Source of the DNA: a virus
Strand: one strand, 5' to 3'
Length of the DNA: 40,075 nucleotides
Virus record (IMG/VR): IMGVR_UViG_3300017964_000032
Span: 1 to 40,075 of that record
Both the position numbers and the translations under genes were made by a program. The notes beneath the pieces are model-generated. The model saw only the letters and a list, made by a program, of their open reading frames with translations. It was not told the DNA's origin and searched no databases. Of this stretch, positions 9,691 through 39,637 are shown in pieces (positions within the stretch are counted from its first letter, which is position 1; each line of letters starts with the position of its first letter).

Positions 9691-10353
9691 TTAAATCTCA
9701 CTTATGTTTGTCAAACTTTGAATTCTAATTGTGTAATCGATCTGTATTAATCTGTTTAATGATTTTTGTACAGGATGGAAGATAACGTGTGTCAACAATC
9801 TTCCTTGATTAGCACCGCTTGGCGAATATGCTTTTAATCCTAATTCATCAAATACATAATTCCCATCCATATCTGTTGAGTTGTCAAACGCTTGTTGTCC
9901 TGTAGGCTCACCGTAATCAAGCAAACAACTTATTAGAATATCTGTGTATGTTGTTCCCAGGGTATGTCTAGTTTCAATAAAGTTACGTGCTGGGTCTGTA
10001 TTGTTTGTGTTATTATCATCAACTGTTTTATAATATGTCTGATTATATAAGGAAGCGTTAACACCTGCATTGTTTGGTGTTAGATATGTAATAATTCCTG
10101 TCGGATCAACAGTAGTTCCACCATTACCAAAAGCCATTTCTACAATATTACCCTTGCCTTCGTTACCTAGTGATTCTGCCAATGAGATACTCATGTTTTC
10201 ATAATGTATAGCATTACGCTTATCTATAAAAACTTCTTTGGTTTCTGGATCAAATATCTTAATGTGACCCTCCATCATTACTCCTGAGTTTTCATTGGGT
10301 TTTTTAGTCTCTGTTTGCACCTTATTATCCTTACTGTTTTCGTTATTAGACAT
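9691..10353 (-). CDS. Virion-type protein of unknown function (220 aa)
   Basis: The protein begins with a polar, probably disordered 25-residue stretch (many Asn, Lys, Glu). A conserved-looking core follows: MEGHIKIFDPETKEVFIDKR, then NAIHYENMSISLAESLGN and IVEMAFGNGGT, and a beta-rich remainder. I recall this arrangement from marine T4-like phages next to baseplate and fibre genes, without a proven function. It does not resemble T4 gp8, gp9, gp10 or gp11 in anything I can see, although position between the giant baseplate-side gene and the fibres would fit a fibre adaptor or wedge accessory protein. It starts 4 bases after the giant gene ends and stops 2 bases before fibre D begins. A purine-rich AAGGAA lies at a suitable distance before the ATG. 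Confidence 0.6.
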   Translation of the reverse strand: MSNNENSKDNKVQTETKKPNENSGVMMEGHIKIFDPETKEVFIDKRNAIHYENMSISLAESLGNEGKGNIVEMAFGNGGTTVDPTGIITYLTPNNAGVNASLYNQTYYKTVDDNNTNNTDPARNFIETRHTLGTTYTDILISCLLDYGEPTGQQAFDNSTDMDGNYVFDELGLKAYSPSGANQGRLLTHVIFHPVQKSLNRLIQIDYTIRIQSLTNISEI

Positions 10354-13300: not shown

Positions 13301-16300
13301 GTCAAACTTCATATTAATTGTGTTAATACGTACTTTTTTATTTTTAAGAATTGGTACTGCCTTAGCAACTTCTGTGATTGTATCACTACCGCCGCCACCT
13401 ACAATAGAAACAATAGGTGCAGTTGTATATCCTGATCCTTCTTTAATTAATTTAATTTCTCTTAATTGTCCTCTAGCAATATATGCCTCAGCAATCGCAT
13501 CCTCTTGAATTCCAGTCGGTAATGTATAATTTCCGTTTGGTAATAAAGGTACTCCGTAGTACGAAGGACCAATAATATAAGGATAAACTGCTTCGTCTAC
13601 ATTGTTAGGATTAACAGTAACAAAGTATGCATATGTTCCATTTGGATATTCCGGAGTAACTGTATATCTACCGTTGTGTTCATCCAAGTCGCCTAATCCT
13701 GCTACATATTCAAAATCTTCAATATAACGTCCATTAGGAATAGAACCATCCGCACGTGGTGTTGTTTTTAATCTATAACTTGAAGTTATAACTTTGATAG
13801 CACTAGGACCATTTACATTTTCATAACCATATGGTCCGTATATCGGATATCCATCTAGAGAGTATCCAATGATAGGCGAATGCGTTGTTTTATCTTTTTC
13901 ATACATCAATCTAGGATCAGAATGATAATGGTAAACACCTTCTGCTTGTGAGTGTCCCGATCCGTCATCAATTCCTAACTCCTGATGTGAAGCAACTGCA
14001 TTGATTTGATATGCAACACCGTTTCTATTTTCTTTCTCAAGTGCTTTAGGATTAAACATAACAACACCGTTTGTTGCGATAGCAATCGCTCCTAATTGTG
14101 TGCTTACTTTTGTTGTTGCTTCTACTGGTGTTCTTGTAATCTTGAATATGAAATTCTGTCTAACAAGATTTTCCGCATCAAAGTTATGATTTGGAATATT
14201 ATTAGTTTTAATATAAAAATGTGTTGCGTCATAATCTTTATCAACAAGAGTTAAGAACGGTCTTGTTTGTAATAGATCAGGTTTTACTTCTCTACCGCCG
14301 GTAATAACTACCAACGGATTCTGTCTGTAACCTTCACCTTTATTACTAATTCTGATCTCACCAACACTGTATTGGTAATTGTCAAACCAATTTACATAAG
14401 GCTGTTCAGATATTTTAATACTATTTGTATCCAACACTTCAAACTTCTTGGTTACAGGATTGTAGTAACTAGGTAAATCAAAGTCAGTATTTCCAATATT
14501 GCTTTCTTCTAATGTGTCATAAGATGTTATGAACTCTCGTATGCTTGAACGATACGGTTTAACTTCTTTAATATATTCTTCAATGTATGCAGGATCATTT
14601 AGATTGTAGTTTAATTTTCTACTAAATCCTCCAAGTTTATTTTTAATGTTTACAAAACTTGTTTTAAATACCCAGTCAACAAACAACTGCTCACTTAAAG
14701 CATATTTTATAGCAATAAAAAATAAATCATTCCACTTAGAACGTAATTCGTCAACAAATATATTATTTTGAATTACTTCTAATATTAATCTAGTTTCTGT
14801 AATTGGCTGTTCGTCAAACAAGTTAATGTCAAAATTTTCTGCACCTGCAAAGCCAAAGTTTAATCGTGCATAATCGTATAAATTTTCATTAAATTTAATT
14901 GTGCTGTTTTGTTTGTAAACTAAATTGTATTCGTTATTGTAACTACCATCTGATTCTACACGTTGTAAAATCATAACATTACCGTCGCCAGCATTTTCAA
15001 TTCTTACATAATCACCAACTGTTGGTTCAATAGTATCTAATTGATATGGTGCTGAAATTTTATAGTTTATTACAAAGTCTAAATCAAATGTTGGCAGTAT
15101 AAAATCTGCATATGACCAAAAACGTGATAAATCATAAGTTTGTGTATTTGTTCTTACCCATAAATTAGTTCCAGTATTCCACTCATACATAGTCCAATAG
15201 TTGTTGGCAGTTTCGTCGACATCAACAAGAACTTTAAATGGTCTAACTTGCATACTACAACTTGTATAATTTTTTCCTGTTTTTAACACTTCTACCGAAG
15301 TTACTCTACCGTTGCTGTCTATTGTTGATTGTGCTCTTGCACCCACACCATCGCCCTGTACTATAATTTCAGGAGCAATTTTATAACCAAATCCTGCATT
15401 GTCAATTTGTACACTACTTAAACGGCCGTTCTTTAGTATAGGAGTTAGTTTGCATTGTAATAAATCCTGTGTTCCAATTAAACTAATATCACTAAAGTTG
15501 TCGATCTTAATATCATACTTTCCTGATATTGCTGTCGGCTGTGGATCATTTTGTCTTAATTTAGAAATGTCTTTTGTATCAACAATTCTAGAATTTGACA
15601 TAGTGTCATTAACAAAGGTTAAAATAAGTTTTAGTGCCTGCAATCTATCTTTAAACATAGATTGTCTTGGTCGAATCTGTAATCCATATTTTCTTTGACT
15701 TGGTAGATCAGGATCCGGCACTGCATTACCTTGATTATCGAATCCTACTAAACTATCATATAATTTTTTAATTAATAATGTATGATCAATCTTAGCGGTT
15801 TGATTTTTTCTCAACAATAACCATTCATTGTGTTCTGGTAAATCTGTCTCAACGTTAGAATAGTAAATTGCTACACTAATGTTTTTATCTGCTAGTGTAG
15901 TTTTAATGTTTGATAAACTAATACTATCCTTACTTAAAATCTGTAAACTCTTAATTCCATATGCTATCGGATTTGCTATAATATTTGCAACTTCAATTGC
16001 AGGAATATTTCGTGTAGTAGCATCATCAGGAACAATAACTGTGTTTCTAACCCAATAATAATATCTTGTTTGGAAAGTATTTGTTGTTGCACTGTAGACT
16101 CGTTTAAATGCTACTGTATTATTATCATATTTTGATTGTCCACTAAAACCTATAGCAACACCTTCGTTTGTATCAGCAATTTCGTTCCATTGTTCAGGTA
16201 ATAGGTCTGACTCTACCCATTCGTAAACATCAATGCTTGACCCAGGAAATAGTGTTCCCCAGTTATTAGTTCTAAATTCTGTATCACCTTGTTCATAATA

Positions 16301-19300
16301 TACATAACGAACAGTATCTAAATCCCACCATAGTTCTCCAACGTGTTCGTCGGTCCATGGTTTGTTTTCATTAACATTTACATTTTGATCGCTAACACTA
16401 TAAATTGCAGGGTCTACATTTGATTTGTATGACAGTTCTGCTTCTGCCAAATATGGAATTTTTCCTTTTGCAGGATCAATTATTTCTAAATAATCTTTGA
16501 CTTCACTCTTTGTGGTATCGTATGTAAACGCACTTTTAATCTTATACGGATTAGTAAATTCTTTTTCTTGTCTTAATAAGTTCCAACCAGCAGTTTTTTC
16601 TTTTTGGTAAACATATAAAGTACCTGTTTGTTCTCCGCTATCAACATTTCCTTGCGGTGCACCAATAAACACACTGTTGGTAGAATAATCTAATCCTTGA
16701 CCAAATCCATCGTTGGTTGTAATATCGTAACTAACAAGTTTTTGACCAAACACAAATTTAGTTCCAAGTTTAGTATATGAATAAACTGTTCCTGTTGCTT
16801 GTGTAAAGTCTTTAATTTTTGTTGTGTTAGCATCAAACGTTGTTGCAAACTCATTCTCTCCGCTTGACGGATTGTTTGGTGTAATATATAAATCAAATAC
16901 TGTTTCAGTTTCGTTTCTACCACCCTCTGCATATACCACAAAGGAATCACCCTCAGGATTTAAAGAAATGTTAGATCCAAAACGTTCTCCTAGTAATTTT
17001 TCTGGAGATAAAATAACCTGTTCAAGCACAAATGTATTATTAACTTTCTTAAAGTAATACACAGCACCATTATTGTTAGTTTTAACATCGCTGTATGGAG
17101 AACCAACAACCAAAACTGTTCCGTCAGCATTTAAAGATATTGACGTTCCAAATTGATCGCCTGTTGCAATACCAACTCCCAACGTGGATGATGTTATGGA
17201 CTGTAATAAATCATATGTTGATGTTGTATTGTTGTATGTATATAAATGTACTGCACCTTCTCTTTTGTCGTATGTGCTATCCTCAACAGTTTCATATCCT
17301 GCAGAATTTACAGCAATAGTTGATAGATCACTTGAAGAAGCAATAACTTCACCAAATCTATCGCCTGATCTTGCATTAGAAAAACCTATTTTATAATTTG
17401 TAGCAACACGCCAATCGTTGTCAACTTTTTCATAAACAAACACATTACCTTGATCATTTGTTTGACCAGGTGCACCGACTAACATTCTTGTATCCGAGAT
17501 AGCAACTGAATAGCCAAACTCTGCATTTGATTGAGGGTCTGGGGAGCCTATAACATATTCTGTTTCAAACAAGTTAGTTAATGTGTTGTATTTTGAAACT
17601 TTTACAACACCTGATTTAATACTTCCTTGTGGTGTTGAATTTATATTACCATAGAAGAACTTAGGTTTGCTCGGAGTTGAAGTTGATTTAAAGTTTGATG
17701 CAAACGGGGCACCTGCTACTAAATGTGTATCTGTTGACGACAGTGCTAAACTCCAACCAAACTTAGGACGTCCGTCAATTAAGTTATCAAGTGGATTGGC
17801 ACTAAGAGCAAAACCTTGTACACCGCCAAGTGTTGATATATTAGTGTTAAACTTTCTTCTTAAAACATAAACAGTACCTTCGTCGCCACTATCTGGTGCA
17901 CCGACCACTATTAGTCTTCCTGCATCACCAGAGACAATAGATTGGCCAAAGGCTTGGTCTGGTGTTGTGTTAACACAACCAAATTTATTTCTTACAAATG
18001 CTGTGGACTTTTCGTAAACTCCCCAGTCGCCATTAGAGTCGTTATCTGCAAAAATTTTACTACCCACAGCAAATTCTGTTACTTCTTTTAAATCGTTTAA
18101 GTCATCAATGTTTTGTAATCTAATAGAAACAAATTCTAATAAACTACCAGTCGAACTATCAGACTGTAAAGGCAATGTATCTAAATCTGTTTGTATTGTA
18201 AATGTATCAGAACTTAGTACACTATTAACTTCGTATACATTATCAATTAAAGGATCAAAATCTTTAATTGAGATTATTGTTCCTTGTGATAACCCGTGTG
18301 GCAAATCTGTATATAATGTAACGACACCGTCATTATCAATGCTAGGGTCTTTATTTTCTGTTTGTATTAATCTAGATCTTAACCCTGTTAATCTCAAGAC
18401 ATCCCAATCTTTTCTCTTATTCTTAGCAAGCCATATTGTGTCTCCTTCTTTAAGAGCATTCACAACAGCATTGCCTAAAATATCGTCATAGTTAAACAAA
18501 GTAATTGTTACATCATCGAGCCTTGGTGTTCCTGCAACAGGAAGTTTTTGAATATAATCAATTGTGTTTTCTGACGTTGATCGATCATATAACGGCCATG
18601 GTGTTGTATTATAATCACTTGGTTTTACTGCAATGTCTTTTGGTAATAATTTAATAATGTTACTACTTGTAACTTCTGCATTTCTTTGTGAAACAAAGTC
18701 ATACCCTTGAGGATTATCAACATTTAATTTTTCATCTAATGCAAATTCAATTTCTTTAACTGTTGAATTGCTTCCTAGACTTCCTACTTTAAACGCCCAT
18801 TCTTCATCAATGTCAATGTTTGTATCAACCCCTTCAAGTCGTAGACGTTGAATTTTTTCAATTGAATTTTTTGTTCCTTTTTCTTTAATAAATCCTTGAT
18901 AGAATTTATATTGAGAAGTTTCGTCTTGAATTAAATTATCAAGATAAGTTCTTTTCTGATAACCAATTAAGTGTTGTGCAAATTTAGTTTGATCAACATC
19001 AAAATTTTCACTTTCTAAACTGTAAAAATCTTCAAAAGAACTTGCTTTATAATCTAAGTTTGGTAATAGTTCAGCAACAGGTTTAGTTCCTAAATATAAC
19101 CAATCATTGATATCAAATGTTTCTGTACCAGGAATAAATTTCTTAGCACTATAATAAATGTTTTTATACCTTACTACTTCTCCTAAGTAATAATCTTTAA
19201 ACTGATACCAATCAGTAATTTGTGCTTCATCATATATAAAGCCTGGAGAGTAGTAATCGCCATTCCATTCGCTGGTTTTAAATCCTAGTAATTTAATACG

Positions 19301-22300
19301 CTTTGCTCTGTATCCTGCTTCTTGGTCATATAAAATATCACCGAATTGACTTTTATCATCGAATACAATTACGTGTTCTTTTTGTACAAGATTTAATTGA
19401 ATAAAATAAATTCCGTTATTTGTGTCTCTCGGACGTATCGTAAATACTCCGTCCTGTCTTGTTGTACTAAAATTATCGCGAGGTAATACACTCCCACTTG
19501 CTGTTAAAATAGTGTAATCATAAAAACTGTTTAATACGTTATCAACTTGCCCTGCACTAAAACTAAATTTAATTCCATCAGCGAACGGAGCCAAAGCAAT
19601 AACACTTTCTGATGACCAACCTTGTGTGGTCCAGAATAAAAATTCTTTTCCAGAAAATTCCCAATTTTGTATTTCAAGCAATTCAGGTAGATATTTGTCA
19701 AAAACAAATCCTTCTGATTCTAACCATTTTCCATATCCTAATATAATGTCATACACATCTTGTATTTTAAGATATGTTGATCCATAAGCAATAATCTTAG
19801 GTGTAGGCTTCCAACGAGTTGCTTTTTGAACTTCTGCACCTCCTGTTAACGGAAGCGAAGGTAATGAAGTAAACTTAGTTTGATCAAATTCTGTTGTGCT
19901 AGTATGCTGTTCTTTACAACGATAATATCTACCGCCGGCTTCAACTATTTGTCCTACGCCATAAAACTTTTCTTGTGTCCATAAAACATATTTGGCACTA
20001 GTTCCCCCAACATTGATTACTGGGTCATCTTTTTGATGTATAGGTTCGTAAACTGTAAAGAACGGTTGTAAATTATCGTATCCTCTAACCAGATAACCTC
20101 TATCTGTTTTTTCAACAACTATACCACTTAATTTTGCAGATTTAACTGGATTAGAAGTTCTAAATTTTAATTCATAATTTTCTGAAGGTAGAAAAATGCT
20201 TGTTTCTTTACTATCAGGATTTGAACTTTCTAACAAAACACGAAGTCTATTTTTAGCCGCAAAGCCTCCTAGTTTATAAACTAAGTTCATACTTGTTTTA
20301 GAAATCTTTAAGTAGTAACTAGAATCAATTGGTTTGTCTAAACTTTTTAGGTATTCAACAACAAAAACATGATACCCTAAACCTATGTGTTTTGTGTTAT
20401 CATAAGTTAATGTATGAATTCTTGCATCGGTTAAATCTAGAATTTTACCTGTGGCTTTGTATAACAAACTTCCACTAGGTGCTATTTCATTTTGTCCTGT
20501 GTCAAATAAACTGCCATGGTACTGTGCAGGCTTAGTTAATGCTAACGCAATTTGTAATGCAAAAGGATACCAACTAGATGTTCTCCAAGATATCTCTGCT
20601 GGATGATGATCTCCGAAAACAAAATCTTTTCTTAATGTTGATTCGTTGATTTCGCCAACTATTCCGACCCTAACTGGATCTAACAACTCGCCGTATTCAT
20701 TAACAGGAATTATCTTTGATAATCCCGGTCTTGCATAAACAGAATTAATTTGTTCGCCTGATGTGTATCTAATTCTTCCTAGTTCTAGGTCGGACCATAG
20801 TTTTTTGTTTCCGTTTGTATACGGTGCTGGACCGTATTCATCTTCCCACCATGTAGGCTTTTCTGAAAATCCTAAACACTCCCAAGGAGCAACATCGGGT
20901 CTCCAAGTGCCGTAAAATTTACTGTAAATTCCTTTCCAGTAACCTGGAAGATATTCTTGACTAAATGTGTCTCTTATAGAATTATAATTTAACGTAAAAA
21001 GATTATCAACATCTGTTACGTCATTAGTTGTAATATCAACACCATACAACGATGCCCATGAACCAAAGTCATTACGCATTATTCTATTAAATTCTTCTAA
21101 AGAGTAATCAGTTTCTCTAAAAGCACCAGGCGTATATTCATTAATATCAAAAACATCTCTGTTATATGAAACTTTGATATTATTATAAATTCTTTTTTCA
21201 AACTCTAATAAAAGGTCATCTCTTATGTCGCCGTAGGTTGCTGTAATTGATCCGTCGTGACCACGTAACATTTCTCTTGGTGTTACATATGAAGTGTCCA
21301 AATATATTTCTGGTTTAAATTTAGGATATAGACCTAATTTAGTTGGTGTTTGTGGAATAACATTTCCAACAGTGTTGTAATCTTTAATAGTGACTTTATC
21401 ACCAACTGCTATTGCTTTTTTAATAGTTACACCGTTGTCAACTGCATCAAAAACATAATCTTGATCGTGGTATAACTGTACACCGTTTACATAAACATAA
21501 ACAGATCGATTTTGCAAAGATGTAATATCAAAACTAGAATCCAACCCAAACGTTTGTTGTGTTGGTGCTGTTTTAGTGTATTCTCTAACAGATAGTTTTT
21601 TACCAAAGCCTGCCATATCTGAATAATAATAAGGCGACGATGTTTTTCTATCTAATGACAACGCATATAGAATATCATCAACATCTGTGCTAATATCACC
21701 AGATAAGTTAATACCTAAACCCTTAACTAAAAACTGCTCTTTAAAAAGATTATAATCTTTTGATTGTTTTCTAATTGCTTTTATAATATTAGTATCATAA
21801 TCAACTAAACTAAAAATACTGTTTAGTAAAGATCCGCCGTGCTTAACATAACGCAGGCCGCTTTTATGAATATCAATTAAGTCTCGAGAATTATTAGGAC
21901 CAAAAGTTACTCCACTAATATTAATATTATTTTCAAAAATAGTTTTAAAATGATCACTTATACTACCTAATGTAAAAGCAGTCAAGTCATTATTCTCTGC
22001 ATTGTTTGTTAAGTTAAGTGGTGGTTCATAAAAACCATTTGCGTTTGGTTTTTGTTTTGTATGTACCTTTAAGACAGTTCTTGTATTTGCAGGAATTGTC
22101 TTTGATGCAAATACCAAAGACACATTATTAGTAACTTCGTTTACAATAATATTAAAATCGGATACAGGTTTATGCACAACATCGTTAAACTCTACTGTGA
22201 TTTCCATATCATTTAGATAAAGATGAGGATTATCAATACAGACAATATTTAAAGTATCTGTTTCTTGAATTATGTCATTTAATTGTATAATTCCCTGTCT

Positions 22301-24274
22301 TGTTCTTTGTTTTGTTTTTTGCCAACCACTTTCATAACGACTTGTTGTTTCGTTAGAGAAGATTTTAACGTATCCGCTGGCTGTGTCAACTGCTTTAATA
22401 GTTGTGTTATCTGTGTAATTAAATGTATTATCGTCCCAATCAAATTCAAAAACAATATCACCAACGTTGTTTACGTTTTGATAAGAAATAGGAAAACCTA
22501 AAATTACGTCATTATTTCCTGTACCAACTTTGTAACTTACAAGTTCGTTACCTGTAAATGTAGTACCACTATAATATGTTTCGTCAGCAAAACTATTGCC
22601 TGCTTTATCAAATAATTCAAACTTAGGTGCTTGATTCAAAGATGTTTTTTGTTGTCCTTTGATCCATGCTCCATCATTATAGAACCAACTTGTTCCTTGG
22701 TTGCTTTCTCCGTCGATGATTACAACCGTATCGTCTGTGATAGGAACATATACTTCATTTAAATGAATTCTATTTTTACCTTCAAATTCAACAAAGTCAA
22801 CTTCGTAAATTTTTCCTTTTACTGTTATATCAGGGTCTGCGTTAAAAATTACACGCATACCTTTCTTAAGAATAACTTCGTCAACATAATATCCCAACGA
22901 ACCTTCGACATCACTCATAACGTCAGTAGTTTGTGTGTCAATTACATCAATGTAATCTTTGCCTACTGATCCAAAATTATAAAGTTTAATATTAGGATTA
23001 AATTCAATAATAGGTCTTTTAGCACGTTGATTTTCATCGAGAACAATCGTTGTGTTATTATATGTTGCTGATGCTTCAATTACGTCTTTGTGTATCCATC
23101 TATTATATCTTGACCATGGATTTTTATCTTGAGAACTTCTGTTGATTGTAATATATTCTTGTTTTGTTGGATAATTTGAAACATCGTCAAAAGGCGTATC
23201 ATCATATTCTTCAACGTCAAACTCGTAATCAAAATTCGAACTGTATATTTCAGGTGTTTGTAATTGGTCTTCTGGAATTAATTTAATCTTATTTCCAACA
23301 CCTTCTACATAAAAGTTTTTATTTTTGTATGTTGCTGGTGTAACTTCCCCTTCAAAATTAACTTTAAGACCGTTAGTAAATTTAACACCATTAGCACTTG
23401 TGTATTCTTTTTTGTCTAATATTTCTGTATTAATATTAACTGATAATTCTTCTTCTGCATTTTTAATTTCAAAAAATCCTTGCATAGACTGATGTCTACC
23501 GCAAACATAAAACAATTTGTCCGGGGCACTTGATGGTACTGTAAATGTAACCACACCCACTTCTGCACCGTTGTTTTGAACTCCTTCATTGTATTGATCT
23601 ACTGCACCAAGTTCTTTTGAAACTTTTAGATAGAAAGGATGTCCTAATGCATTTACATCAAACACATAAGTTGCACCCCTATACAATGTAACAATAGGAT
23701 TTTTACTAAAACCGTTTGGCGTAAACACCCATGCTTCGTTTCCGCTATTCGTTACTTGATAAGTGCTTGACGTACCTTCGGAATTTCCTGTTACTGTAAC
23801 AGGACTAGGACCGTTTGGCAACCAATAGTATTGACGATAATTTACAAATTTATCAAAATCAATAAGAGGATTCCAAACATAATAATCGCTCGAAGTTAGT
23901 CTACTATGATTTGTTGTGTCACCATTAAAATAGTTAATTTGATTTAAAAGATCGTCATACGTTCCTACCCATTCTGTTTTATCACTAAAGTCATCACGTA
24001 TTACAGCACTAGGTAAAAAGTTATATCTTCTTCTATTGTCTGTTGGCTCTTGAACATAAATGTCAGATGGTTTACTGTTTTTAGAATATCGTGAACCAAC
24101 ATATCCATTTAATCTTTCTAAATTACCTTTAGAAATTAAACTATCAAGTGTTGCACCTAAAAACTTTTTGTTTGCCTCGGTTCTAAAATATAAAGGCAAC
24201 AAGTCCGCACTGTTGCGGTGTGTGTCTTTGTTGTCAACACTTACTGGTGTTTGATTGTCTTCGCTATATGCCAT
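10358..24274 (-). CDS. Giant virion structural protein (4638 aa), baseplate/fibre-associated
   Basis: One uninterrupted frame of 13.9 kb follows gp6 in the late block, where marine T4-like phages often carry a very large baseplate-side gene. The N-terminus (NSADLLPLYFRTEANKKFLG) is of a kind I recall from such proteins. Domains visible by eye: a cupredoxin-like segment at about 180-272 with candidate copper ligands His212, Cys258, His261 and Met264 (FYVCGRHQSM); about seven FG-GAP-like blades at about 2110-2550 (VVGAPDSGDEGTVYVL, LVGAPGQTNDQGNVFVY, FIGAPQG); three G-GY--P--(I/V)-GG segments; a YHYH-like domain at about 3390-3575 (GVYHYHSDPR, IIGYSLDGYPIYGPYGY); and repeated beta-sandwich units in the last 1000 residues (TGDGSTTEFLL, FVTVNGVSKNYVL). 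No enzyme motif, signal peptide or membrane segment was found. The start at 24274 has an AAGGTAA-type binding site. The role is probably a long baseplate-attached scaffold or host-contact fibre; the exact T4 counterpart (gp7 or none) is uncertain. Confidence 0.85.
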   Translation of the reverse strand: MAYSEDNQTPVSVDNKDTHRNSADLLPLYFRTEANKKFLGATLDSLISKGNLERLNGYVGSRYSKNSKPSDIYVQEPTDNRRRYNFLPSAVIRDDFSDKTEWVGTYDDLLNQINYFNGDTTNHSRLTSSDYYVWNPLIDFDKFVNYRQYYWLPNGPSPVTVTGNSEGTSSTYQVTNSGNEAWVFTPNGFSKNPIVTLYRGATYVFDVNALGHPFYLKVSKELGAVDQYNEGVQNNGAEVGVVTFTVPSSAPDKLFYVCGRHQSMQGFFEIKNAEEELSVNINTEILDKKEYTSANGVKFTNGLKVNFEGEVTPATYKNKNFYVEGVGNKIKLIPEDQLQTPEIYSSNFDYEFDVEEYDDTPFDDVSNYPTKQEYITINRSSQDKNPWSRYNRWIHKDVIEASATYNNTTIVLDENQRAKRPIIEFNPNIKLYNFGSVGKDYIDVIDTQTTDVMSDVEGSLGYYVDEVILKKGMRVIFNADPDITVKGKIYEVDFVEFEGKNRIHLNEVYVPITDDTVVIIDGESNQGTSWFYNDGAWIKGQQKTSLNQAPKFELFDKAGNSFADETYYSGTTFTGNELVSYKVGTGNNDVILGFPISYQNVNNVGDIVFEFDWDDNTFNYTDNTTIKAVDTASGYVKIFSNETTSRYESGWQKTKQRTRQGIIQLNDIIQETDTLNIVCIDNPHLYLNDMEITVEFNDVVHKPVSDFNIIVNEVTNNVSLVFASKTIPANTRTVLKVHTKQKPNANGFYEPPLNLTNNAENNDLTAFTLGSISDHFKTIFENNINISGVTFGPNNSRDLIDIHKSGLRYVKHGGSLLNSIFSLVDYDTNIIKAIRKQSKDYNLFKEQFLVKGLGINLSGDISTDVDDILYALSLDRKTSSPYYYSDMAGFGKKLSVREYTKTAPTQQTFGLDSSFDITSLQNRSVYVYVNGVQLYHDQDYVFDAVDNGVTIKKAIAVGDKVTIKDYNTVGNVIPQTPTKLGLYPKFKPEIYLDTSYVTPREMLRGHDGSITATYGDIRDDLLLEFEKRIYNNIKVSYNRDVFDINEYTPGAFRETDYSLEEFNRIMRNDFGSWASLYGVDITTNDVTDVDNLFTLNYNSIRDTFSQEYLPGYWKGIYSKFYGTWRPDVAPWECLGFSEKPTWWEDEYGPAPYTNGNKKLWSDLELGRIRYTSGEQINSVYARPGLSKIIPVNEYGELLDPVRVGIVGEINESTLRKDFVFGDHHPAEISWRTSSWYPFALQIALALTKPAQYHGSLFDTGQNEIAPSGSLLYKATGKILDLTDARIHTLTYDNTKHIGLGYHVFVVEYLKSLDKPIDSSYYLKISKTSMNLVYKLGGFAAKNRLRVLLESSNPDSKETSIFLPSENYELKFRTSNPVKSAKLSGIVVEKTDRGYLVRGYDNLQPFFTVYEPIHQKDDPVINVGGTSAKYVLWTQEKFYGVGQIVEAGGRYYRCKEQHTSTTEFDQTKFTSLPSLPLTGGAEVQKATRWKPTPKIIAYGSTYLKIQDVYDIILGYGKWLESEGFVFDKYLPELLEIQNWEFSGKEFLFWTTQGWSSESVIALAPFADGIKFSFSAGQVDNVLNSFYDYTILTASGSVLPRDNFSTTRQDGVFTIRPRDTNNGIYFIQLNLVQKEHVIVFDDKSQFGDILYDQEAGYRAKRIKLLGFKTSEWNGDYYSPGFIYDEAQITDWYQFKDYYLGEVVRYKNIYYSAKKFIPGTETFDINDWLYLGTKPVAELLPNLDYKASSFEDFYSLESENFDVDQTKFAQHLIGYQKRTYLDNLIQDETSQYKFYQGFIKEKGTKNSIEKIQRLRLEGVDTNIDIDEEWAFKVGSLGSNSTVKEIEFALDEKLNVDNPQGYDFVSQRNAEVTSSNIIKLLPKDIAVKPSDYNTTPWPLYDRSTSENTIDYIQKLPVAGTPRLDDVTITLFNYDDILGNAVVNALKEGDTIWLAKNKRKDWDVLRLTGLRSRLIQTENKDPSIDNDGVVTLYTDLPHGLSQGTIISIKDFDPLIDNVYEVNSVLSSDTFTIQTDLDTLPLQSDSSTGSLLEFVSIRLQNIDDLNDLKEVTEFAVGSKIFADNDSNGDWGVYEKSTAFVRNKFGCVNTTPDQAFGQSIVSGDAGRLIVVGAPDSGDEGTVYVLRRKFNTNISTLGGVQGFALSANPLDNLIDGRPKFGWSLALSSTDTHLVAGAPFASNFKSTSTPSKPKFFYGNINSTPQGSIKSGVVKVSKYNTLTNLFETEYVIGSPDPQSNAEFGYSVAISDTRMLVGAPGQTNDQGNVFVYEKVDNDWRVATNYKIGFSNARSGDRFGEVIASSSDLSTIAVNSAGYETVEDSTYDKREGAVHLYTYNNTTSTYDLLQSITSSTLGVGIATGDQFGTSISLNADGTVLVVGSPYSDVKTNNNGAVYYFKKVNNTFVLEQVILSPEKLLGERFGSNISLNPEGDSFVVYAEGGRNETETVFDLYITPNNPSSGENEFATTFDANTTKIKDFTQATGTVYSYTKLGTKFVFGQKLVSYDITTNDGFGQGLDYSTNSVFIGAPQGNVDSGEQTGTLYVYQKEKTAGWNLLRQEKEFTNPYKIKSAFTYDTTKSEVKDYLEIIDPAKGKIPYLAEAELSYKSNVDPAIYSVSDQNVNVNENKPWTDEHVGELWWDLDTVRYVYYEQGDTEFRTNNWGTLFPGSSIDVYEWVESDLLPEQWNEIADTNEGVAIGFSGQSKYDNNTVAFKRVYSATTNTFQTRYYYWVRNTVIVPDDATTRNIPAIEVANIIANPIAYGIKSLQILSKDSISLSNIKTTLADKNISVAIYYSNVETDLPEHNEWLLLRKNQTAKIDHTLLIKKLYDSLVGFDNQGNAVPDPDLPSQRKYGLQIRPRQSMFKDRLQALKLILTFVNDTMSNSRIVDTKDISKLRQNDPQPTAISGKYDIKIDNFSDISLIGTQDLLQCKLTPILKNGRLSSVQIDNAGFGYKIAPEIIVQGDGVGARAQSTIDSNGRVTSVEVLKTGKNYTSCSMQVRPFKVLVDVDETANNYWTMYEWNTGTNLWVRTNTQTYDLSRFWSYADFILPTFDLDFVINYKISAPYQLDTIEPTVGDYVRIENAGDGNVMILQRVESDGSYNNEYNLVYKQNSTIKFNENLYDYARLNFGFAGAENFDINLFDEQPITETRLILEVIQNNIFVDELRSKWNDLFFIAIKYALSEQLFVDWVFKTSFVNIKNKLGGFSRKLNYNLNDPAYIEEYIKEVKPYRSSIREFITSYDTLEESNIGNTDFDLPSYYNPVTKKFEVLDTNSIKISEQPYVNWFDNYQYSVGEIRISNKGEGYRQNPLVVITGGREVKPDLLQTRPFLTLVDKDYDATHFYIKTNNIPNHNFDAENLVRQNFIFKITRTPVEATTKVSTQLGAIAIATNGVVMFNPKALEKENRNGVAYQINAVASHQELGIDDGSGHSQAEGVYHYHSDPRLMYEKDKTTHSPIIGYSLDGYPIYGPYGYENVNGPSAIKVITSSYRLKTTPRADGSIPNGRYIEDFEYVAGLGDLDEHNGRYTVTPEYPNGTYAYFVTVNPNNVDEAVYPYIIGPSYYGVPLLPNGNYTLPTGIQEDAIAEAYIARGQLREIKLIKEGSGYTTAPIVSIVGGGGSDTITEVAKAVPILKNKKVRINTINMKFDRLSSQKVIQTQTAVDTFTATAGQVKFKLTYVPTLDKRRFTINVNNETAYIESYNISIATKENATYKAQEGYIIFNTPPGEGAVVTITYQKSIALMQATDRIDYYYEPTAGMPGKDPAQLMTGVEYDGVNIQGLEFGVSVGWDGLPWFSHGWDTFSGSNIDYAFRADGNTNTFTLPYTPELNQNINVYFDGVRQDPTNTPTIVGDGTLATYTLNVTPADGVLVVFRPDTSDGSLAPTDVNNLDTLLSGGTFAVTNGAFNTAIGQNPEDIEIDGDGFVTPDTSHAPEEVVPGQVFDTISMKIYNAPADGSPIIKTNRYFASGTTNEFAFEQLPGTEASIFVTVDGTYLKDSEYTINWKDKKVSLSSTPAVDNMVTVQTLNISGSKILERATFTGDGSTTEFLLTAKYDDVKSAFVTVNGVSKNYVLRKANNGSVIVDISYTAASGDAIQIVVMTSVEKTYSEIKKEQFTYNGSTEYTLSEQPANIAPLHSMVIVEVTDQNTNVTRRLRAPDTVYYVSNGITLDYPVSQNPAYPTFSLALGELEVYQNGTRLTAIADYQFDTTTNLLTFYQGNLQAGDVIAITILRNHQYEISLQNLADSSRASYLNLDVPSPSVINNGDIISVTTFTNHDTNLIRKEVFEGNVGGTYTLSRKAVDTNYVWVELDGKPLVADIDYKVLDDRQTFYIDDKFEQLQTSRVVAMTFSEEISYDAVGYHIFKDMINRVHFKRISAQDRTTLSQALNKNDKEINLVDASFLPEPSKQRKIPGVIFIDRERIEYYEKSGNTLKQITRGTLGTGVKDDYPVGTSVEDASVNQTMPYTDTTNVYESIIRPGLPNGRSVHVLETINVASGVEAHDQVEVYLGGRKLQKPTPSTNLIKKHNIEIAYDSEETNSLGVSSDVVQTPEFTIEPVGDSTGKGYYKLVLRDEPQDGLELKVVQKQGRIWYEQGLGTASNGATLQRAETKEAKFLLERTSGLPVINIKE
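10369..10376 (-). promoter_or_regulatory. Late-type box AATAAATA before the 220-aa gene (weak)
   Basis: On the minus strand AATAAATA lies 16 bases upstream of the 220-residue gene, inside the 3' end of the giant gene. It matches the ATAAATA core of T4-type late promoters. A transcript starting at the normal distance would begin inside the ribosome binding site, so the element may be chance or may serve poorly. Confidence 0.22.
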
Positions 24275-34702: not shown

Positions 34703-35557
34703 ATGAAAAGAGTAAAGTATCTTAACAATAGAGATCTGCTTAAAGAAATACATAAGTCAAAAAATTCATTCAGTTCCTATACTGATGATGCTTACTCTAC
34801 TTATGACATTATTTTGGGTAGTTTGGACAAGGTGAATAGGCTTACTATTGCACAAGCAAAGCGTAATAGAGCAGATCGCATTGGCAAACAAGCATATGAA
34901 CTAGCAAGAGAATCGGGTGATAAGAAAACAAAACTAGCAGAAGTAACACCTGATTGGAAAAAGGTCGAAAAGACTGATTTAATCTTTAGGATAATGACAT
35001 TTGATCATGTTCCAGAAGAACCAGGACGTAAACGCAAAACAAAGTCAGTAGCAGACAAACACACCAAAGTTAATTTTCCTCCGTTTCAACATTGGAAATA
35101 TGACGACACCGACAACTTGATGTGTGTTGGTAAAAGTCATTGGAAGGGCGGAATGCTTAATGGACATTTTTCCAAAGAGCATGGAAGAATTACAGAAAAT
35201 TTAGGAATGATGTTTTTAAAACTTGCCGATCGTTATGGCACACGAAGCAACTGGCGTGGTTACACATACAATGACGAGATGAGATCACAAGCCGTATTGC
35301 AACTTTCACAAATTGGTTTACAGTTTGACGAATCTAAATCAGAAAATCCATTTGCTTACTATACGGCGGCGGTAACAAATTCATTTACAAGAGTATTAAA
35401 CATTGAAAAGAAAAATCAAAGCATTCGAGATGACATTCTACAAGAAAACGGACTCAACCCATCCTTTACTAGACAGAACGAAGAATACTTCAGAGAGGAC
35501 AAAGAAAAGTTGGCTGAGTTTTACAAATCAATGCGAAAGCCAAAAGCAGATTACTAA
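34703..35557 (+). CDS. gp55: RNA polymerase sigma factor for late transcription, gp55
   Basis: The 284-residue protein is a gp55-type sigma factor that directs host RNA polymerase to phage late promoters. The T4-like N-terminal motif NNRDLL (8-13) is present. The sigma region-2-like core at about 163-240 contains LGMMFLKLADRY, NWRGYTYNDEM and FDESKSENPFAYYTAAVTN, followed by EKKNQSIRDDIL; T4 gp55 has the matching FDETKYKNPHAYITQA. T4 gp55 is 185 residues. The extra length lies mainly between residues 25 and 160 and includes KHTKVNFPPFQHWKYDD and VGKSHWKGGMLNGHFSKEHG. I recall this long form from some marine myoviruses. A clamp-binding C-terminal peptide (T4: LDFLYE) may correspond to KLAEFYKSM. 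AGGAG lies 6 bases before the ATG. Confidence 0.88.
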   Translation: MKRVKYLNNRDLLKEIHKSKNSFSSYTDDAYSTYDIILGSLDKVNRLTIAQAKRNRADRIGKQAYELARESGDKKTKLAEVTPDWKKVEKTDLIFRIMTFDHVPEEPGRKRKTKSVADKHTKVNFPPFQHWKYDDTDNLMCVGKSHWKGGMLNGHFSKEHGRITENLGMMFLKLADRYGTRSNWRGYTYNDEMRSQAVLQLSQIGLQFDESKSENPFAYYTAAVTNSFTRVLNIEKKNQSIRDDILQENGLNPSFTRQNEEYFREDKEKLAEFYKSMRKPKADY

Positions 35558-35609: not shown

Positions 35610-36632
35610 ATGGAAAATTTGTTTAAAAAAGCGGCAGTTTTCACGGACATACATTTTGGTCTTAAATCAAATTCAAAAATTCACAACGACGATTGTGAAG
35701 CATTTGTGGATTGGTATATTAAAGAGGCAAAAAAAGAAGGTTGTGATGTAGGTATCTTTACAGGAGACTGGCATCATAATAGAAGTGCGTTAAATTTAAC
35801 CACAATGGATGCTAGTTTGCGTTCTTTGGAAAAACTAGGTGCGGCATTTGATAAGTTTTTCTTCTTTCCAGGAAATCATGATTTATATTATAAAGATAAA
35901 AGAGAAATTCATTCAGTAGTATTTGGTAAACACGTTCCCGGTGTTACAGTTGTTAACGAACCAATGGTTATTGGCGATGTTGCACTTGTACCATGGCTGG
36001 TTGGTGAGGAGTGGAAAAAAGTATCAAAGTTGAAATGCAAATATATGTTTGGTCACTTTGAACTTCCTAACTTCAAAATGAATGCCATGGTTGATATGCC
36101 TGACACAGGCGAAATTAAAGCAGATGATTTTCAAAGTCAAGAAATGGTATTTTCAGGGCATTTCCATAAAAGACAAAACAACAAAAATGTTTGGTATATC
36201 GGAAATGCATTTCCGCACAATTACGCAGATGCTTGGGACGATGAACGTGGTATGATGACGTTAGAATGGGGAGGTCAACCTAAATTCATTGATTGGCCCG
36301 ACTGTCCAAAATATCGAACCATGAAACTTTCTAAACTATTGCATGAAACAGATACTCTATTAAGTCCTAGTAACTTGTATATACGTGTTGTTTTAGACAT
36401 CGACGTATCATATGAAGAAGCAACCTTTATGAAAGAAACGTTTTCTAAACAATATAATTTAAGAGAAATTAGTTTACTACCAGATACCGAAAATCAAGAC
36501 AGTGATTTAAGCACAGATCGTGGTGACATAGAATTTGAAAGTGTGGATCAAATTGTAACTGAACAAATTACAAAAATTTCTAGTGAAAACTTTAAAAGCA
36601 GTCTACTGTTAGACTTATATAGGAACTTATAA
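35610..36632 (+). CDS. gp47: Recombination endonuclease subunit gp47 (Mre11/SbcD-like)
   Basis: The 340-residue protein is the nuclease half of the gp46/gp47 complex, which resects DNA ends for recombination-dependent replication. The metallophosphoesterase motifs are all visible: TDIHFG (Asp13, His15), GDWHHNR (Asp53, His55), GNHDLYY (Asn89, His90), a FGHFE segment (His149) and SGHFHKRQ (His184, His186). Length matches T4 gp47 (339 residues). The C-terminal third is the capping part that binds the ATPase subunit. The stop overlaps the gp46 start by one base, so the subunits are coupled in translation. The start is supported by AAGGAG four bases upstream and by a sigma70-type promoter right before it. 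Confidence 0.95.
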   Translation: MENLFKKAAVFTDIHFGLKSNSKIHNDDCEAFVDWYIKEAKKEGCDVGIFTGDWHHNRSALNLTTMDASLRSLEKLGAAFDKFFFFPGNHDLYYKDKREIHSVVFGKHVPGVTVVNEPMVIGDVALVPWLVGEEWKKVSKLKCKYMFGHFELPNFKMNAMVDMPDTGEIKADDFQSQEMVFSGHFHKRQNNKNVWYIGNAFPHNYADAWDDERGMMTLEWGGQPKFIDWPDCPKYRTMKLSKLLHETDTLLSPSNLYIRVVLDIDVSYEEATFMKETFSKQYNLREISLLPDTENQDSDLSTDRGDIEFESVDQIVTEQITKISSENFKSSLLLDLYRNL

Positions 36633-38416
36633 TGTTTAAAATTAAAACTATTACAGTAAAAAACTTTATGAGTGTGGGTAATTCGACCCAGGCTGTTGAC
36701 TTTGATAAAGATCACTTGACTCTTGTGCTTGGCGAAAACATGGACCTAGGTGGCGACGATGCAGGGTCACGTAACGGTACGGGTAAAACAACAATTATTA
36801 ATGCAATCAGTTACGCATTTTATGGTGAAGCACTTACTAAAATTAGAAAAGACAATCTTGTAAACAAAACCAACGGTAAGGATATGTTGGTTACTGTTGA
36901 ATTTGATGTTAATGGTAAAAACTATCGTATAGAAAGAGGCAGAAAGAAAAATTTATTAAAGTTCTATATTGATAATTCAGAACAAGTAGCAGATGACATA
37001 GATGAATCACAAGGTGATTCACGTAAAACACAAGAAGAAATTGATAGATTACTTGGTATGAGTCATACCATGTTCAAGCATTTGGTGGCACTTAACACGT
37101 ATACGGAGCCTTTCCTTTCCTTAAATCCAAATGCTCAACGAGAAATCATTGAGCAACTGTTAGGTATCACCATCTTATCTGAAAAAGCAGAAAAACTTAA
37201 AGAACAAATGAAACTTATTCGTGATGAAATTACGTCTGAGGATGCTAAAATTCGTTCAATTGAATCTGCAAACCAGAAAGTCCAAGAATCAATTGATAAC
37301 TTGGATATTAAAAGTAAAGCATGGGATAGTTCAAGACTTGATGAAGTTACTAGACTATCTCGTGCTATTACTGAACTTGAACAAGTGGATATTGAAAAAG
37401 AAATTACAGCACATAAAGATCTAGAAAAATGGAATTCGTCAAATAACGAACTTACAAATTTAAAGAAAGAAAAAGCAAGTCTTGAATCTAGTTTGTTACG
37501 TGCTGATCGAGAAGTTAAAAAATATCAAAAAGAATTAGAAGAAATTAAAACTAAAAAATGTTTTACTTGTGGTCAAGAATTACATGACGAATCACACGCA
37601 ACATTACTTGCTGAAAAACAAAATGATGTAAAAGAAAGTGAAACTTATTATAACGGCATTCAACTACAAATAGATGATGTTGTTAAAAAGATTGATGATA
37701 TAGGTGATATTAATGGAAAACCTACCACATATTATGACTATGCCGAAGAAGCATACAATCACAAAAATAATTTAAAGAGTTTACAAGAACGTAAAGTTGA
37801 AAAAGATACAGAATTAAACCCATATGCTGAACAAATGAAAGAGTTACAAAACACTGCGTTGCAAACTGTAACTTGGGATCATATGAATTCGTTAACTGAA
37901 ATCAAAGAACACCAAGAATTTTTATATAAACTGTTAACATCAAAAGATTCGTTTATTCGTAAGCGTATTATTGATCAAAACTTATACTTCTTAAACAAAA
38001 GATTAAAATATTATCTAGAAACACTAGGATTACCACATCAAGTTGTATTTCAGAACGATTTAACCGTCGAAATTACAGAACTAGGACGTGACTTAGACTT
38101 TGATAACCTCAGTCGAGGTGAACGAAATAGACTCATTTTATCTTTAAGTTGGACGTTCCGTGATGTTTGGGAAAGCCTATATCACAGCATTAACCTATTG
38201 TTTATTGATGAACTTATTGATAGCGGTATGGATGCCGCAGGTGTTGAAAGTTCTATTGCTGTGCTTAAAAAGATGGCACGTGAAAGACAGAAAAACATCT
38301 ATTTGATTTCACACAAAGAAGAATTGAGTGCAAGGGTTAATAATATATTAAAAGTAATTAAAGAAAATGGATTTACATCCTATTCCAACGATACAGAAAT
38401 AGTCAATGTCAAGTAA
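36632..38416 (+). CDS. gp46: Recombination endonuclease subunit gp46 (Rad50/SbcC-like ATPase)
   Basis: The 594-residue protein is the ABC-type ATPase partner of gp47. The Walker A region runs from Gly34 to Thr54 and ends SRNGTGKTT; it contains the extra Gly/Asp stretch seen in phage gp46. Long helical coiled-coil arms flank a zinc hook, CFTCGQEL (Cys310, Cys313). The ABC signature is LSRGERNR (493-500) and Walker B is LLFIDELID (522-530, Asp526, Glu527), followed by an ISHKEEL switch segment. T4 gp46 is 560 residues. The protein overlaps gp47 by one base and the following small gene by eleven bases. Confidence 0.95.
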   Translation: MFKIKTITVKNFMSVGNSTQAVDFDKDHLTLVLGENMDLGGDDAGSRNGTGKTTIINAISYAFYGEALTKIRKDNLVNKTNGKDMLVTVEFDVNGKNYRIERGRKKNLLKFYIDNSEQVADDIDESQGDSRKTQEEIDRLLGMSHTMFKHLVALNTYTEPFLSLNPNAQREIIEQLLGITILSEKAEKLKEQMKLIRDEITSEDAKIRSIESANQKVQESIDNLDIKSKAWDSSRLDEVTRLSRAITELEQVDIEKEITAHKDLEKWNSSNNELTNLKKEKASLESSLLRADREVKKYQKELEEIKTKKCFTCGQELHDESHATLLAEKQNDVKESETYYNGIQLQIDDVVKKIDDIGDINGKPTTYYDYAEEAYNHKNNLKSLQERKVEKDTELNPYAEQMKELQNTALQTVTWDHMNSLTEIKEHQEFLYKLLTSKDSFIRKRIIDQNLYFLNKRLKYYLETLGLPHQVVFQNDLTVEITELGRDLDFDNLSRGERNRLILSLSWTFRDVWESLYHSINLLFIDELIDSGMDAAGVESSIAVLKKMARERQKNIYLISHKEELSARVNNILKVIKENGFTSYSNDTEIVNVK

Positions 38417-38651: not shown

Positions 38652-39092
38652 ATGCAGTGGACCTACCGTGGAAAATCAATTGACACAATACCCGAAGAAA
38701 TCGAAGGTTTTGTGTATCTTATTACAAACACAACCACTGGACGCAAGTACATAGGCAAGAAATTAGCAAAGTTTAAAACTACCAAACCCCCACTCAAAGG
38801 CAAAAAAAACAAAAGACGTGGACACAAGGAAAGTGATTGGCAAGAATATTGGGGATCATCAGATGCTCTAATTGCCGATGTCCAAGCATTGGGTCCAGAA
38901 AACTTCACAAGAGAAATACTTTATTTTTGTAAATCAAGGGCAGAGATGTCCTACATAGAGGCAAGAGAGCAGTTTGACCGCCGTGTATTAGAAACGGATG
39001 AATATTACAACGGAATTATTAATTGTAGGGTTGGCGGATCAAACAAACTGCGACAGGCACTTATAGAGCAGGCAAAACAATCCAACACTTAA
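38652..39092 (+). CDS. GIY-YIG family endonuclease (Seg-like)
   Basis: The 146-residue protein has the GIY-YIG core near its N-terminus: GFVYLITNTTTGRKYIGKK (19-37), a variant in which FVY replaces GIY and KYIG supplies the second half. A basic loop (PPLKGKKNKRRGHKESDW) follows, then WGSSDALIADVQALG and YIEAREQFDRRVL, where Glu103 is the likely metal-binding residue. T4 Seg proteins and the intron-coded I-TevI use this domain to nick or cut DNA for homing; related free-standing proteins are common in marine T4-like phages. It has no obvious separate DNA-binding domain. It lies 24 bases after the small basic gene and ends directly at the non-coding structured region. Confidence 0.78.
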   Translation: MQWTYRGKSIDTIPEEIEGFVYLITNTTTGRKYIGKKLAKFKTTKPPLKGKKNKRRGHKESDWQEYWGSSDALIADVQALGPENFTREILYFCKSRAEMSYIEAREQFDRRVLETDEYYNGIINCRVGGSNKLRQALIEQAKQSNT

Positions 39093-39494
39093 GGTTGGCG
39101 GGCCAGTTTGTAATACCGCTGAGTAAAAGGTACCCCTGAGAAGGACACTCGTACACGTTAATCGACCCCCACTGGGAGGTAAGCCATCAAAAGAATTGGG
39201 CCTACTGGTTAGCGTAGATTGTATGTTGGCAGTCAAAAAACACAGAACAGTTCATAAAAACTCCTTGCAAAGGAACGAAGCGGGAGGTAGCGGAGAATCC
39301 GCGAAGCGGTTCGCGAAGCGAAAAGCCGGTTTAGCAGATTTTTACGTGATGTCGATGTAGGTTGGGGAAGGTCAGAACCCATTGAACTTGTGTATAAACA
39401 AACACCTACTTCCAGTCTTGGCTGTGACGAACTCACATGATGTTCAAGATTAGATGGAACCCTTAACAGGTTCCGTCTGACTGAAACAATCTAC
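39093..39494 (+). ncRNA. Candidate structured non-coding RNA, about 400 nt
   Basis: This stretch has no convincing gene on either strand, and many segments pair. Proposed helices: 39098-39107 with 39204-39213 (one mismatch, two G-U pairs); 39165-39170 with 39174-39180 (one bulge); 39214-39222 with 39486-39494 (9 bp), followed in register by 39230-39234 with 39479-39483 (5 bp); 39262-39266 with 39270-39274; and 39452-39461 with 39469-39478 (10 bp with one G-U). A three-way junction is closed by 39357-39362/39404-39409, with arms 39363-39366/39378-39381 and 39388-39391/39398-39401. The junction linker 39382-39387 can pair with 39442-39447, a possible pseudoknot. Single helices of this size can occur by chance; the nested, adjoining arrangement is the argument. 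The strand is inferred from the neighbouring genes. It does not match tmRNA, RNase P RNA or a tRNA by eye, and no own promoter was found. Confidence 0.45.
39290..39328. repeat. Cluster of GC-rich hairpins with GAA loops
   Basis: Overlapping short hairpins share GAA loops: GCGGA-GAA-TCCGC (39290-39302), CCGC-GAA-GCGG (39299-39309) and TTCGC-GAA-GCGAA (39310-39322). The alternative hairpin CGCGAA-GCGG-TTCGCG spans 39300-39315. The word CGAAGCG occurs three times, at 39276, 39302 and 39314. Composition is strikingly GC-rich against the AT-rich surroundings. The hairpins exclude one another in part, so they could switch or act at the DNA level. Confidence 0.6.
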
Positions 39495-39505
39495 ATGATG
39501 CTAAA

Positions 39506-39534
39506 TTGCTTCGCAATTATCTTTCATATATAAT
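39506..39534 (+). promoter_or_regulatory. Second TTGCTT-17-TATAAT promoter
   Basis: TTGCTT at 39506-39511 and TATAAT at 39529-39534 are 17 bases apart, the same boxes and spacing as the gp55 promoter. The upstream box lies in a small perfect hairpin, AATTGC-TTC-GCAATT (39504-39518). It would start a leader of about 115 bases for the gene at 39658. Confidence 0.5.
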
Positions 39535-39570
39535 AAGAAATAAATGTGTTTGAGCGATTAGCGAAAACAC

Positions 39571-39590
39571 AAGTGATCTTTAGATCACTT
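39571..39590 (+). terminator. Perfect 8-bp hairpin in the leader of the last gene
   Basis: AAGTGATC and GATCACTT flank a four-base loop TTTA. A T-run does not follow (the next bases are CTTAACATAC), so it is not a standard intrinsic terminator. It lies between the sigma70-type promoter and the late-type box, where it could end early transcripts or protect the leader. A second inverted repeat (TGTGTTT/AAACACA, about 39545-39572) lies directly before it and touches its first bases. Confidence 0.35.
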
Positions 39591-39629: not shown

Positions 39630-39637
39630 GATAAATA
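39630..39637 (+). promoter_or_regulatory. Late promoter box (GATAAATA) for the last gene
   Basis: GATAAATA matches the ATAAATA late core and lies 20 bases before the TTG start, with AAGGAG at 39645-39650. A transcript from the normal position (near 39643) would start just before the ribosome binding site, giving a very short leader. This gene thus appears to have both an early-type and a late-type promoter. Confidence 0.5.

Follow-up and report, generated by a model that had tools for sequence, protein, structure and literature searches.

The conserved locus

The window, which is the whole 40,075-nt stretch of viral DNA analysed here (positions 1 to 40,075 of IMG/VR record IMGVR_UViG_3300017964_000032), ends in a block of genes that recurs in a fixed order: gp55, gp47, gp46, a small ORF, a SegE-like GIY-YIG gene, a structured RNA, tandem hairpins, usually a late-promoter-like site, and a variable gene. 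The block lies on the plus strand, as do all features of the window described below unless stated otherwise. It starts with a gene for a gp55-like late sigma factor (34703..35557; phrog_12791, E 1.5e-83), followed by those for the gp47-like (SbcD) subunit (35610..36632; phrog_100, E 3.4e-67) and the gp46-like (SbcC) subunit (36632..38416; phrog_77, E 3.4e-103); the SegE-type GIY-YIG endonuclease gene (38652..39092; PF19835, E 5.8e-34) is directly 5' of the RNA, whose place in these viruses is next to the recombination genes. Elsewhere in the window, the minus strand carries a single 4638-aa ORF (10358-24274) amid the tail and baseplate genes.

From 39093 to ~39657, between the GIY-YIG ORF and the next plus-strand gene, no gene is evident, as the preliminary description had proposed, and the lengths of the homologous RNAs are spread evenly across the three residues modulo 3, as expected for a noncoding RNA. 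Likewise in keeping with a noncoding RNA, the GC content of the RNA is 46.7%, compared with 34.7% for the contig. The conserved RNA begins at about 39071-39093 and ends at 39499. Just 5' of its fold is a conserved GGCAA (39071..39075), present in 59 of 78 class A and 19 of 19 class B loci (see below), mostly 20 or 10 nt ahead of the first conserved RNA motif; it is possibly a processing or start signal.

Three hairpins follow the RNA. The first, AATTGC-TTC-GCAATT (39502..39519), is apparent from the sequence and has counterparts at the same place in homologues, with sequences that vary between viruses. The second (39546..39570) contains GAGCG..AGCGA, and a GAGYG..ARCGA element is found within 250 nt in 111 of 129 loci. 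The third, AAGTGATC-TTTA-GATCACTT (39571..39590), was also recognized from the sequence, with a scan match on the minus strand of the same palindrome. Beyond the hairpins is a late-promoter-like GATAAATA (39630..39637; T4 consensus TATAAATA). Among the homologous loci, the T4 late-promoter-like NATAAATA occurs within 350 nt downstream of the RNA in 85 of 128, against 22.7 expected; a stretch of the same length upstream of the RNA has it in 0 of 124.

The last gene of the window has a TTG start at ~39658 and runs off the contig (39658..40075); the N-terminus of its product resembles a capsid-targeting sequence. Across ~100 loci, the proteins encoded by the first gene after the RNA mostly begin with M-K-[IV]-x-[ED]-[IVL], and a start of the form M[KRNQE][IVLM]..E lies within the first 70 aa of 84 of 101 of them. 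Single-linkage clustering joined 69 of 84 downstream proteins, so part of their variability falls within one loose family. The internal proteins of T4 are described as a highly diverse set in which the capsid targeting sequence is the sole shared feature (PMC3012670). By analogy, the variable downstream genes may encode capsid-targeted, internal-type proteins, and the slot is possibly a cargo slot for host-takeover proteins.

Distribution of the RNA and its association with the GIY-YIG gene

A search with the GIY-YIG protein returned 80 viral loci, about 70 of which run on into sequence resembling the gap, and a motif search independent of the GIY-YIG gene identified at least 120 viral contigs with a homologue of the RNA. 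Profile searches (nhmmer) matched the RNA in most fetched loci, yielding 87 non-redundant full copies at 95% identity, with a mean pairwise identity of 67%. The window belongs to the family of RNAs sharing this core (the A/B core), having a profile match, compensated helices, the pseudoknot P5 and the paired repeats described below. A divergent homologue on a short contig (L111:6690-7040) has no GIY-YIG gene nearby; its surroundings include an HNH endonuclease upstream, a weak terminase-small-subunit match downstream, and TATAAATA after the RNA.

The GIY-YIG gene is directly upstream of the RNA in 96 of the 105 loci with room for it, and in 8 further loci an insert of ~300 bp, which appears to hold an ORF, lies between the two. 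Homing nucleases are often of the GIY-YIG type. This near-constant association with a SegE-type gene raises the alternative that the RNA is related to a self-splicing or homing element that accompanies the endonuclease, or is what remains of one, a reading also favored by the location of phage nuclease genes at genetic-exchange boundaries (PMC10448857). We consider it improbable: the RNA interrupts no gene, the window has no group I or group II intron match at E<=10, large contigs carry a single locus each (some copies being reported as two pieces of one), and the RNA of the eight loci above is separated from the GIY-YIG gene by the ~300-bp insert. The strict synteny could reflect shared ancestry rather than function.

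Contigs of the GIY-YIG set (L003-L082) end within 400 nt after the GIY-YIG gene in 28 of 80 cases, and 3 start within 400 nt upstream of it. Since contigs end after the gene far more often than they begin before it, the conserved RNA probably breaks metagenome assemblies.

No covariance model in Rfam matches the window at the gathering threshold or at E<=10, including those for tmRNA, RNase P, group I and group II introns, GOLLD, ROOL, OLE, HEARO and other large bacterial RNAs, in agreement with the preliminary description, which had found no resemblance to tmRNA, RNase P or GOLLD-type RNAs. ARAGORN predicts no tRNA or tmRNA gene in the window. Seven related loci lack Rfam matches at gathering, and two others (L029, L058) gave sub-threshold chance matches only. 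Comparison of the window, the class A, B and C RNAs and one further 5' domain (that of L036) with phage isolates by blastn found nothing credible, and the core is absent from the E. coli genomes searched. The gp55 closest to that of the window among isolates (48%) is from phage PA5oct, in which gp55-gp47-gp46 is present and the RNA is undetectable in 18.8 kb. A short core pattern matched bacterial genomes 11 times, where we estimate from the pattern length and database size that ~7.5 matches would arise by chance; these near-chance matches were set aside, except for two contigs of a Neomarinimicrobiota MAG (PBPT01000016, L208; PBPT01000082, L210). Both bear the RNA, and their gp46 shares 61% identity with that of the window, so these are viral contigs that were binned into the MAG.

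Fold and covariation

The preliminary description had drawn a structured RNA of about 400 nt between the GIY-YIG gene and a new promoter, and comparative analysis upholds this: compensatory changes exceed a simulated null, and the late-promoter-like site lies downstream. We scored the covariation of four-pair stacks on an alignment built from sequence only, with 40 tree-simulated alignments as the null. None of these 40 reached the scores of ten stacks, which lie almost entirely in separate helices and include stacks of P2, P3, P4, P5, P6 and P7. In a second test, on a separately made alignment of 35 sequences drawn largely from the same source loci as the first, 98.4% of cells are paired and both partners have changed in 17 pairs. 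The fold has a covariation score of 0.270 versus 0.138 in shuffles (0 of 500 reached it); cells changed on both sides number 164, compared with 50 in shuffles. When the structure is slid along the alignment, the paired share drops to 33-43%.

The window's RNA has a 5' domain that we call class A, joined to the common 3' core. The P1 hairpin (39097-39101/39116-39120) is 98-100% paired, one of its pairs changing from GC to AU in five cases and to CG in one. P2 (39121-39123/39148-39150 with 39130-39131/39145-39146) has UA/AU, GC/CG and CG/UA exchanges in stacks that exceed every null. P3 (39155-39161/39209-39215) encloses a variable inner hairpin and is 99% paired, with three double-changed pairs. 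The P4 hairpin follows (39217-39221/39230-39234; 98% paired, with a UA/AU exchange). The long-range helix P5 (39250-39254/39383-39387) occurs in 52 distinct strand combinations; a run of at least five Watson-Crick pairs is found in 87% of cognate pairings and 20% of non-cognate ones, and the exceptions, judged by eye, are mostly sequences in which the script picked the wrong A-run. As P5 crosses P8 (39357-39362/39404-39409), it is a pseudoknot. The P6 hairpin (39261-39264/39283-39286) encloses a conserved GGAACGAAGC and has three double-changed pairs. P7 (39290..39347) varies in length and sequence, its basal strands (39290-39294/39343-39347) covarying beyond all 40 nulls. P8 and its inner helix P9 (39363-39366/39378-39381) form a near-invariant core (39357..39409; 99-100% paired); being nearly invariant, they are supported by conservation and offer no covariation test. 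A further hairpin, P12 (39452-39461/39469-39478), lies between the paired repeats and is 96% paired. At the 5' edge, a CCAAC/GTTGG pairing was rejected by eye on the alignment, many homologues having C-A mismatches there.

This fold revises the one drawn from the single sequence. The 10-bp hairpin at 39452-39478 is P12 and stands, as does the outer stem of the proposed three-way junction at 39357-39409, which is P8 (100% paired, nearly invariant, with no covariation test). The three closing helices (39098-39107/39204-39213, 39214-39222/39486-39494 and 39230-39234/39479-39483) and the suggested pseudoknot (39382-39387/39442-39447) are jointly 73.6% paired, equal to shuffles. They fail because their strands belong to P1, P3, P4 and P5, with 39383-39387 pairing with 39250-39254 instead; the drawing of two coaxial domains is therefore wrong in detail, the actual fold consisting of several local hairpins and a different long-range pseudoknot. 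Single-sequence folding energy does not reach significance for the window (z = -1.07), and the effect among homologues is modest (median z -1.45); folding energy alone would wrongly dismiss the RNA, and comparative evidence is needed.

A conservation acting only on the DNA, with the segment serving as a recombination anchor beside a variable cargo gene, would fit the variability of the downstream gene, the P7 hairpin variants common to divergent RNAs, and the frequent contig breaks at this point (28 of 80 contigs). Pairs that change in compensation, those of the rewritten pseudoknot among them, require selection at the level of RNA structure, and the covariation largely refutes this explanation, which we regard as very improbable. 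The segment 39093..39499 is almost certainly a genuine structured RNA.

P7 variants (39290-39347) are nearly or fully identical in otherwise divergent RNAs (L055/L029; L018/L027/L063; L007/L024/L052), suggesting that single helices recombine between RNAs.

Paired repeats at the 3' end

The RNA of the window ends with a second copy (39493..39499) of the 7-nt sequence ACATGAT found upstream in the core (39435..39441), so that the 3' hairpin is flanked by direct repeats. In both core classes, A/B and C, such repeats flank the 3' hairpin and change together, with at least 16 variants. The first six bases of copy 2 are found again upstream in 198 of 198 A/B-core loci, in 10 variants (ACATGAA, ACATGAT, ACATAAT, ACGTGAA, ACAGGAA, GCATGAA, GCATAAA, GTATGAA, ACATGAG and ACATAAA); since these 198 loci partly overlap, some coming from the same contigs, and the commonest variant accounts for 151 of them, the argument draws its strength from how many variants there are. 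The repeats of class C agree in 84 of 91 distinct loci, in seven variants (GAATAAT, ACATGAT, AGATGAT, AGATAAT, GAATGAT, GGATGAA and GGATGAG). In a few cases the last base differs between copies.

Pairing of the two copies as an antiparallel CAUG/CAUG helix was considered and rejected: CAGG, CATA and most class C variants keep identity and break the pairing. As identity is kept and complementarity is not, the copies do not pair with each other. A complement of the repeats was not enriched within -3/+1.5 kb, which argues against a partner in cis. The identity of the repeats shows coordinated change, suggesting that a single co-evolving partner, a putative reader, recognizes both copies.

Modular organization

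The RNA is modular: one genomic slot holds unrelated types of 5' domain and at least one different core. Class B RNAs have the same 3' core as the window, joined to an unrelated three-way junction with compensatory changes of its own, and a GIY-YIG gene precedes all 24 of the 24 distinct class B RNAs. GIY-YIG loci lacking the A/B core have another structured RNA, class C, in the same slot. Class C is found in at least 120 contigs (among them L019, L036, L039, L071, L073, L079 and L274-L352), with the GIY-YIG gene upstream in 66 of 72 distinct loci with room for it. Its consensus fold has 45 pairs altered on both sides, a count for a fold that RNAalifold itself chose, with no null and with at least one stray sequence in the set. 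P12 is replaced by another hairpin.

The 5' domains of class C are class B-like (L019, L079), of a third type (L039), or, in nine loci, the Polynucleobacter-1 RNA of Rfam (RF01718). The last were matched at 60-80.5 bits, against a gathering threshold of 37 bits (L036, at 547-687, and L281, L319, L357, L373, L378, L393, L394 and L395); the window has no RF01718 match even at E<=10. L319 also contains a match to the Rfam freshwater-2 RNA (9942-10018; 61.4 bits, gathering 49.9). A GIY-YIG gene lies 5-42 nt upstream in eight of eight RF01718 loci with upstream sequence, with gp46 further up where the contig reaches. The slot after gp55-gp47-gp46-GIY-YIG is thus common to the window's RNA and the RF01718 loci, a property found here that is outside Rfam's definition; sampling RF01718 in six genomes was uninformative. 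Because RF01718 directly follows the GIY-YIG gene and precedes a class C-type core, it belongs to a longer RNA in these viruses, and Polynucleobacter-1 appears in these loci to be one piece of a larger viral RNA rather than a free-standing bacterial RNA.

Proposed function

At this locus a lineage of T4-like viruses thus encodes a noncoding RNA that is large and structured, and we propose that it most likely acts in trans as a ribonucleoprotein RNA. It would be transcribed together with gp55/gp47/gp46/GIY-YIG as the 3' portion of their transcript, be released or ended at the tandem hairpins, and serve as a scaffold that offers its two identical loops to a single viral partner co-evolving with them; a dimeric or bivalent protein would be the simplest candidate. 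We favor this explanation as a whole with somewhat better than even confidence, a judgement that blends near certainty that the RNA is genuine with a more tentative view, below even, of the mechanism of duplicated loops and a common partner.

An element acting in cis, either a 3' UTR stabilizing or terminating the gp46-GIY-YIG transcript or a leader or riboswitch for the downstream gene, would account for the position of the RNA between genes with hairpins after it, and large conserved aptamer-like cores are typical of riboswitches. Moreover, the source table for Polynucleobacter-1 (PMC2864571) enters a lower-case 'y' in its second evidence column, which we read as possibly cis-regulatory. However, most loci (85 of 128, within 350 nt) have a late-promoter-like site after the RNA and ahead of the next gene, and that gene varies strongly, in contrast to the conserved RNA; because the following gene usually has its own promoter-like site and is so variable, the RNA is probably not its leader. 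Nor would a terminator or mRNA stabilizer need a core of 400 nt, interchangeable domains and a recognition loop in duplicate. We therefore consider a cis-acting role unlikely.

Returning to the trans-acting RNA, a broader possibility, which we regard as less likely than not, is that it is a new modular viral RNA machine: T4-like viruses would combine unrelated structured domains, the Polynucleobacter-1 module included, on a shared plan in which a pair of identical short loops co-evolves with a partner that varies. The setting could be an arms race or a virus-specific ribonucleoprotein beside a variable gene for putatively injected proteins. Precise predictions follow from the co-varying loops and from the compensation in the pseudoknot, so that partner capture and mutational swaps could reveal the function.

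Comparison with known systems

These results show that uncultivated T4-like viruses widely carry a large structured RNA that is absent from Rfam, the phage-isolate collection and the literature searched, with a 2023 survey of phage structured RNAs outside the comparison. A structured RNA is known from a marine T4-like phage: Melnitz, like its relatives, has a two-piece tmRNA (PMC9004378). Melnitz also has the nearest isolate homologue of the window's GIY-YIG protein (67%), but its GIY-YIG gene is elsewhere and is followed by no such RNA, and tmRNA was not found in the window.

Like GOLLD and ROOL, large ornate RNAs of phages and prophages (PMC12286853), the RNA is large, highly structured and phage-borne; ROOL likewise has pseudoknots, and has no identified protein partner (PMC12286853). 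It is shorter (~400 nt), has no match to their covariance models, and is fixed to the gp46/GIY-YIG locus, whereas ROOL is often near tRNA islands (PMC12286853). The contacts between chains of ROOL, GOLLD and OLE include base pairs and symmetric kissing loops (PMC12286853); the RNA described here has a duplicated identical loop.

A third comparison is with Polynucleobacter-1 (RF01718; Weinberg et al. 2010, PMC2864571), a motif without an assigned function whose model spans only 141 nt of the longer RNA. Sister viruses have it in the slot described here, 5-42 nt downstream of the GIY-YIG gene, as the 5' domain of an RNA whose core is of class C type; the co-varying repeats and the hairpins further downstream are of the same kind as in the window. 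The RNA of the window differs in its unrelated 5' domain and its core and has no RF01718 match, so that locus and 3' design are common to the two, and the RF01718 sequence is not. As the 5' domain of one variant was already catalogued, the RNA is not categorically new. Class C deserves a covariance model of its own, and Polynucleobacter-1 gains a genomic context in which it seems to be one exchangeable domain within a longer viral RNA.
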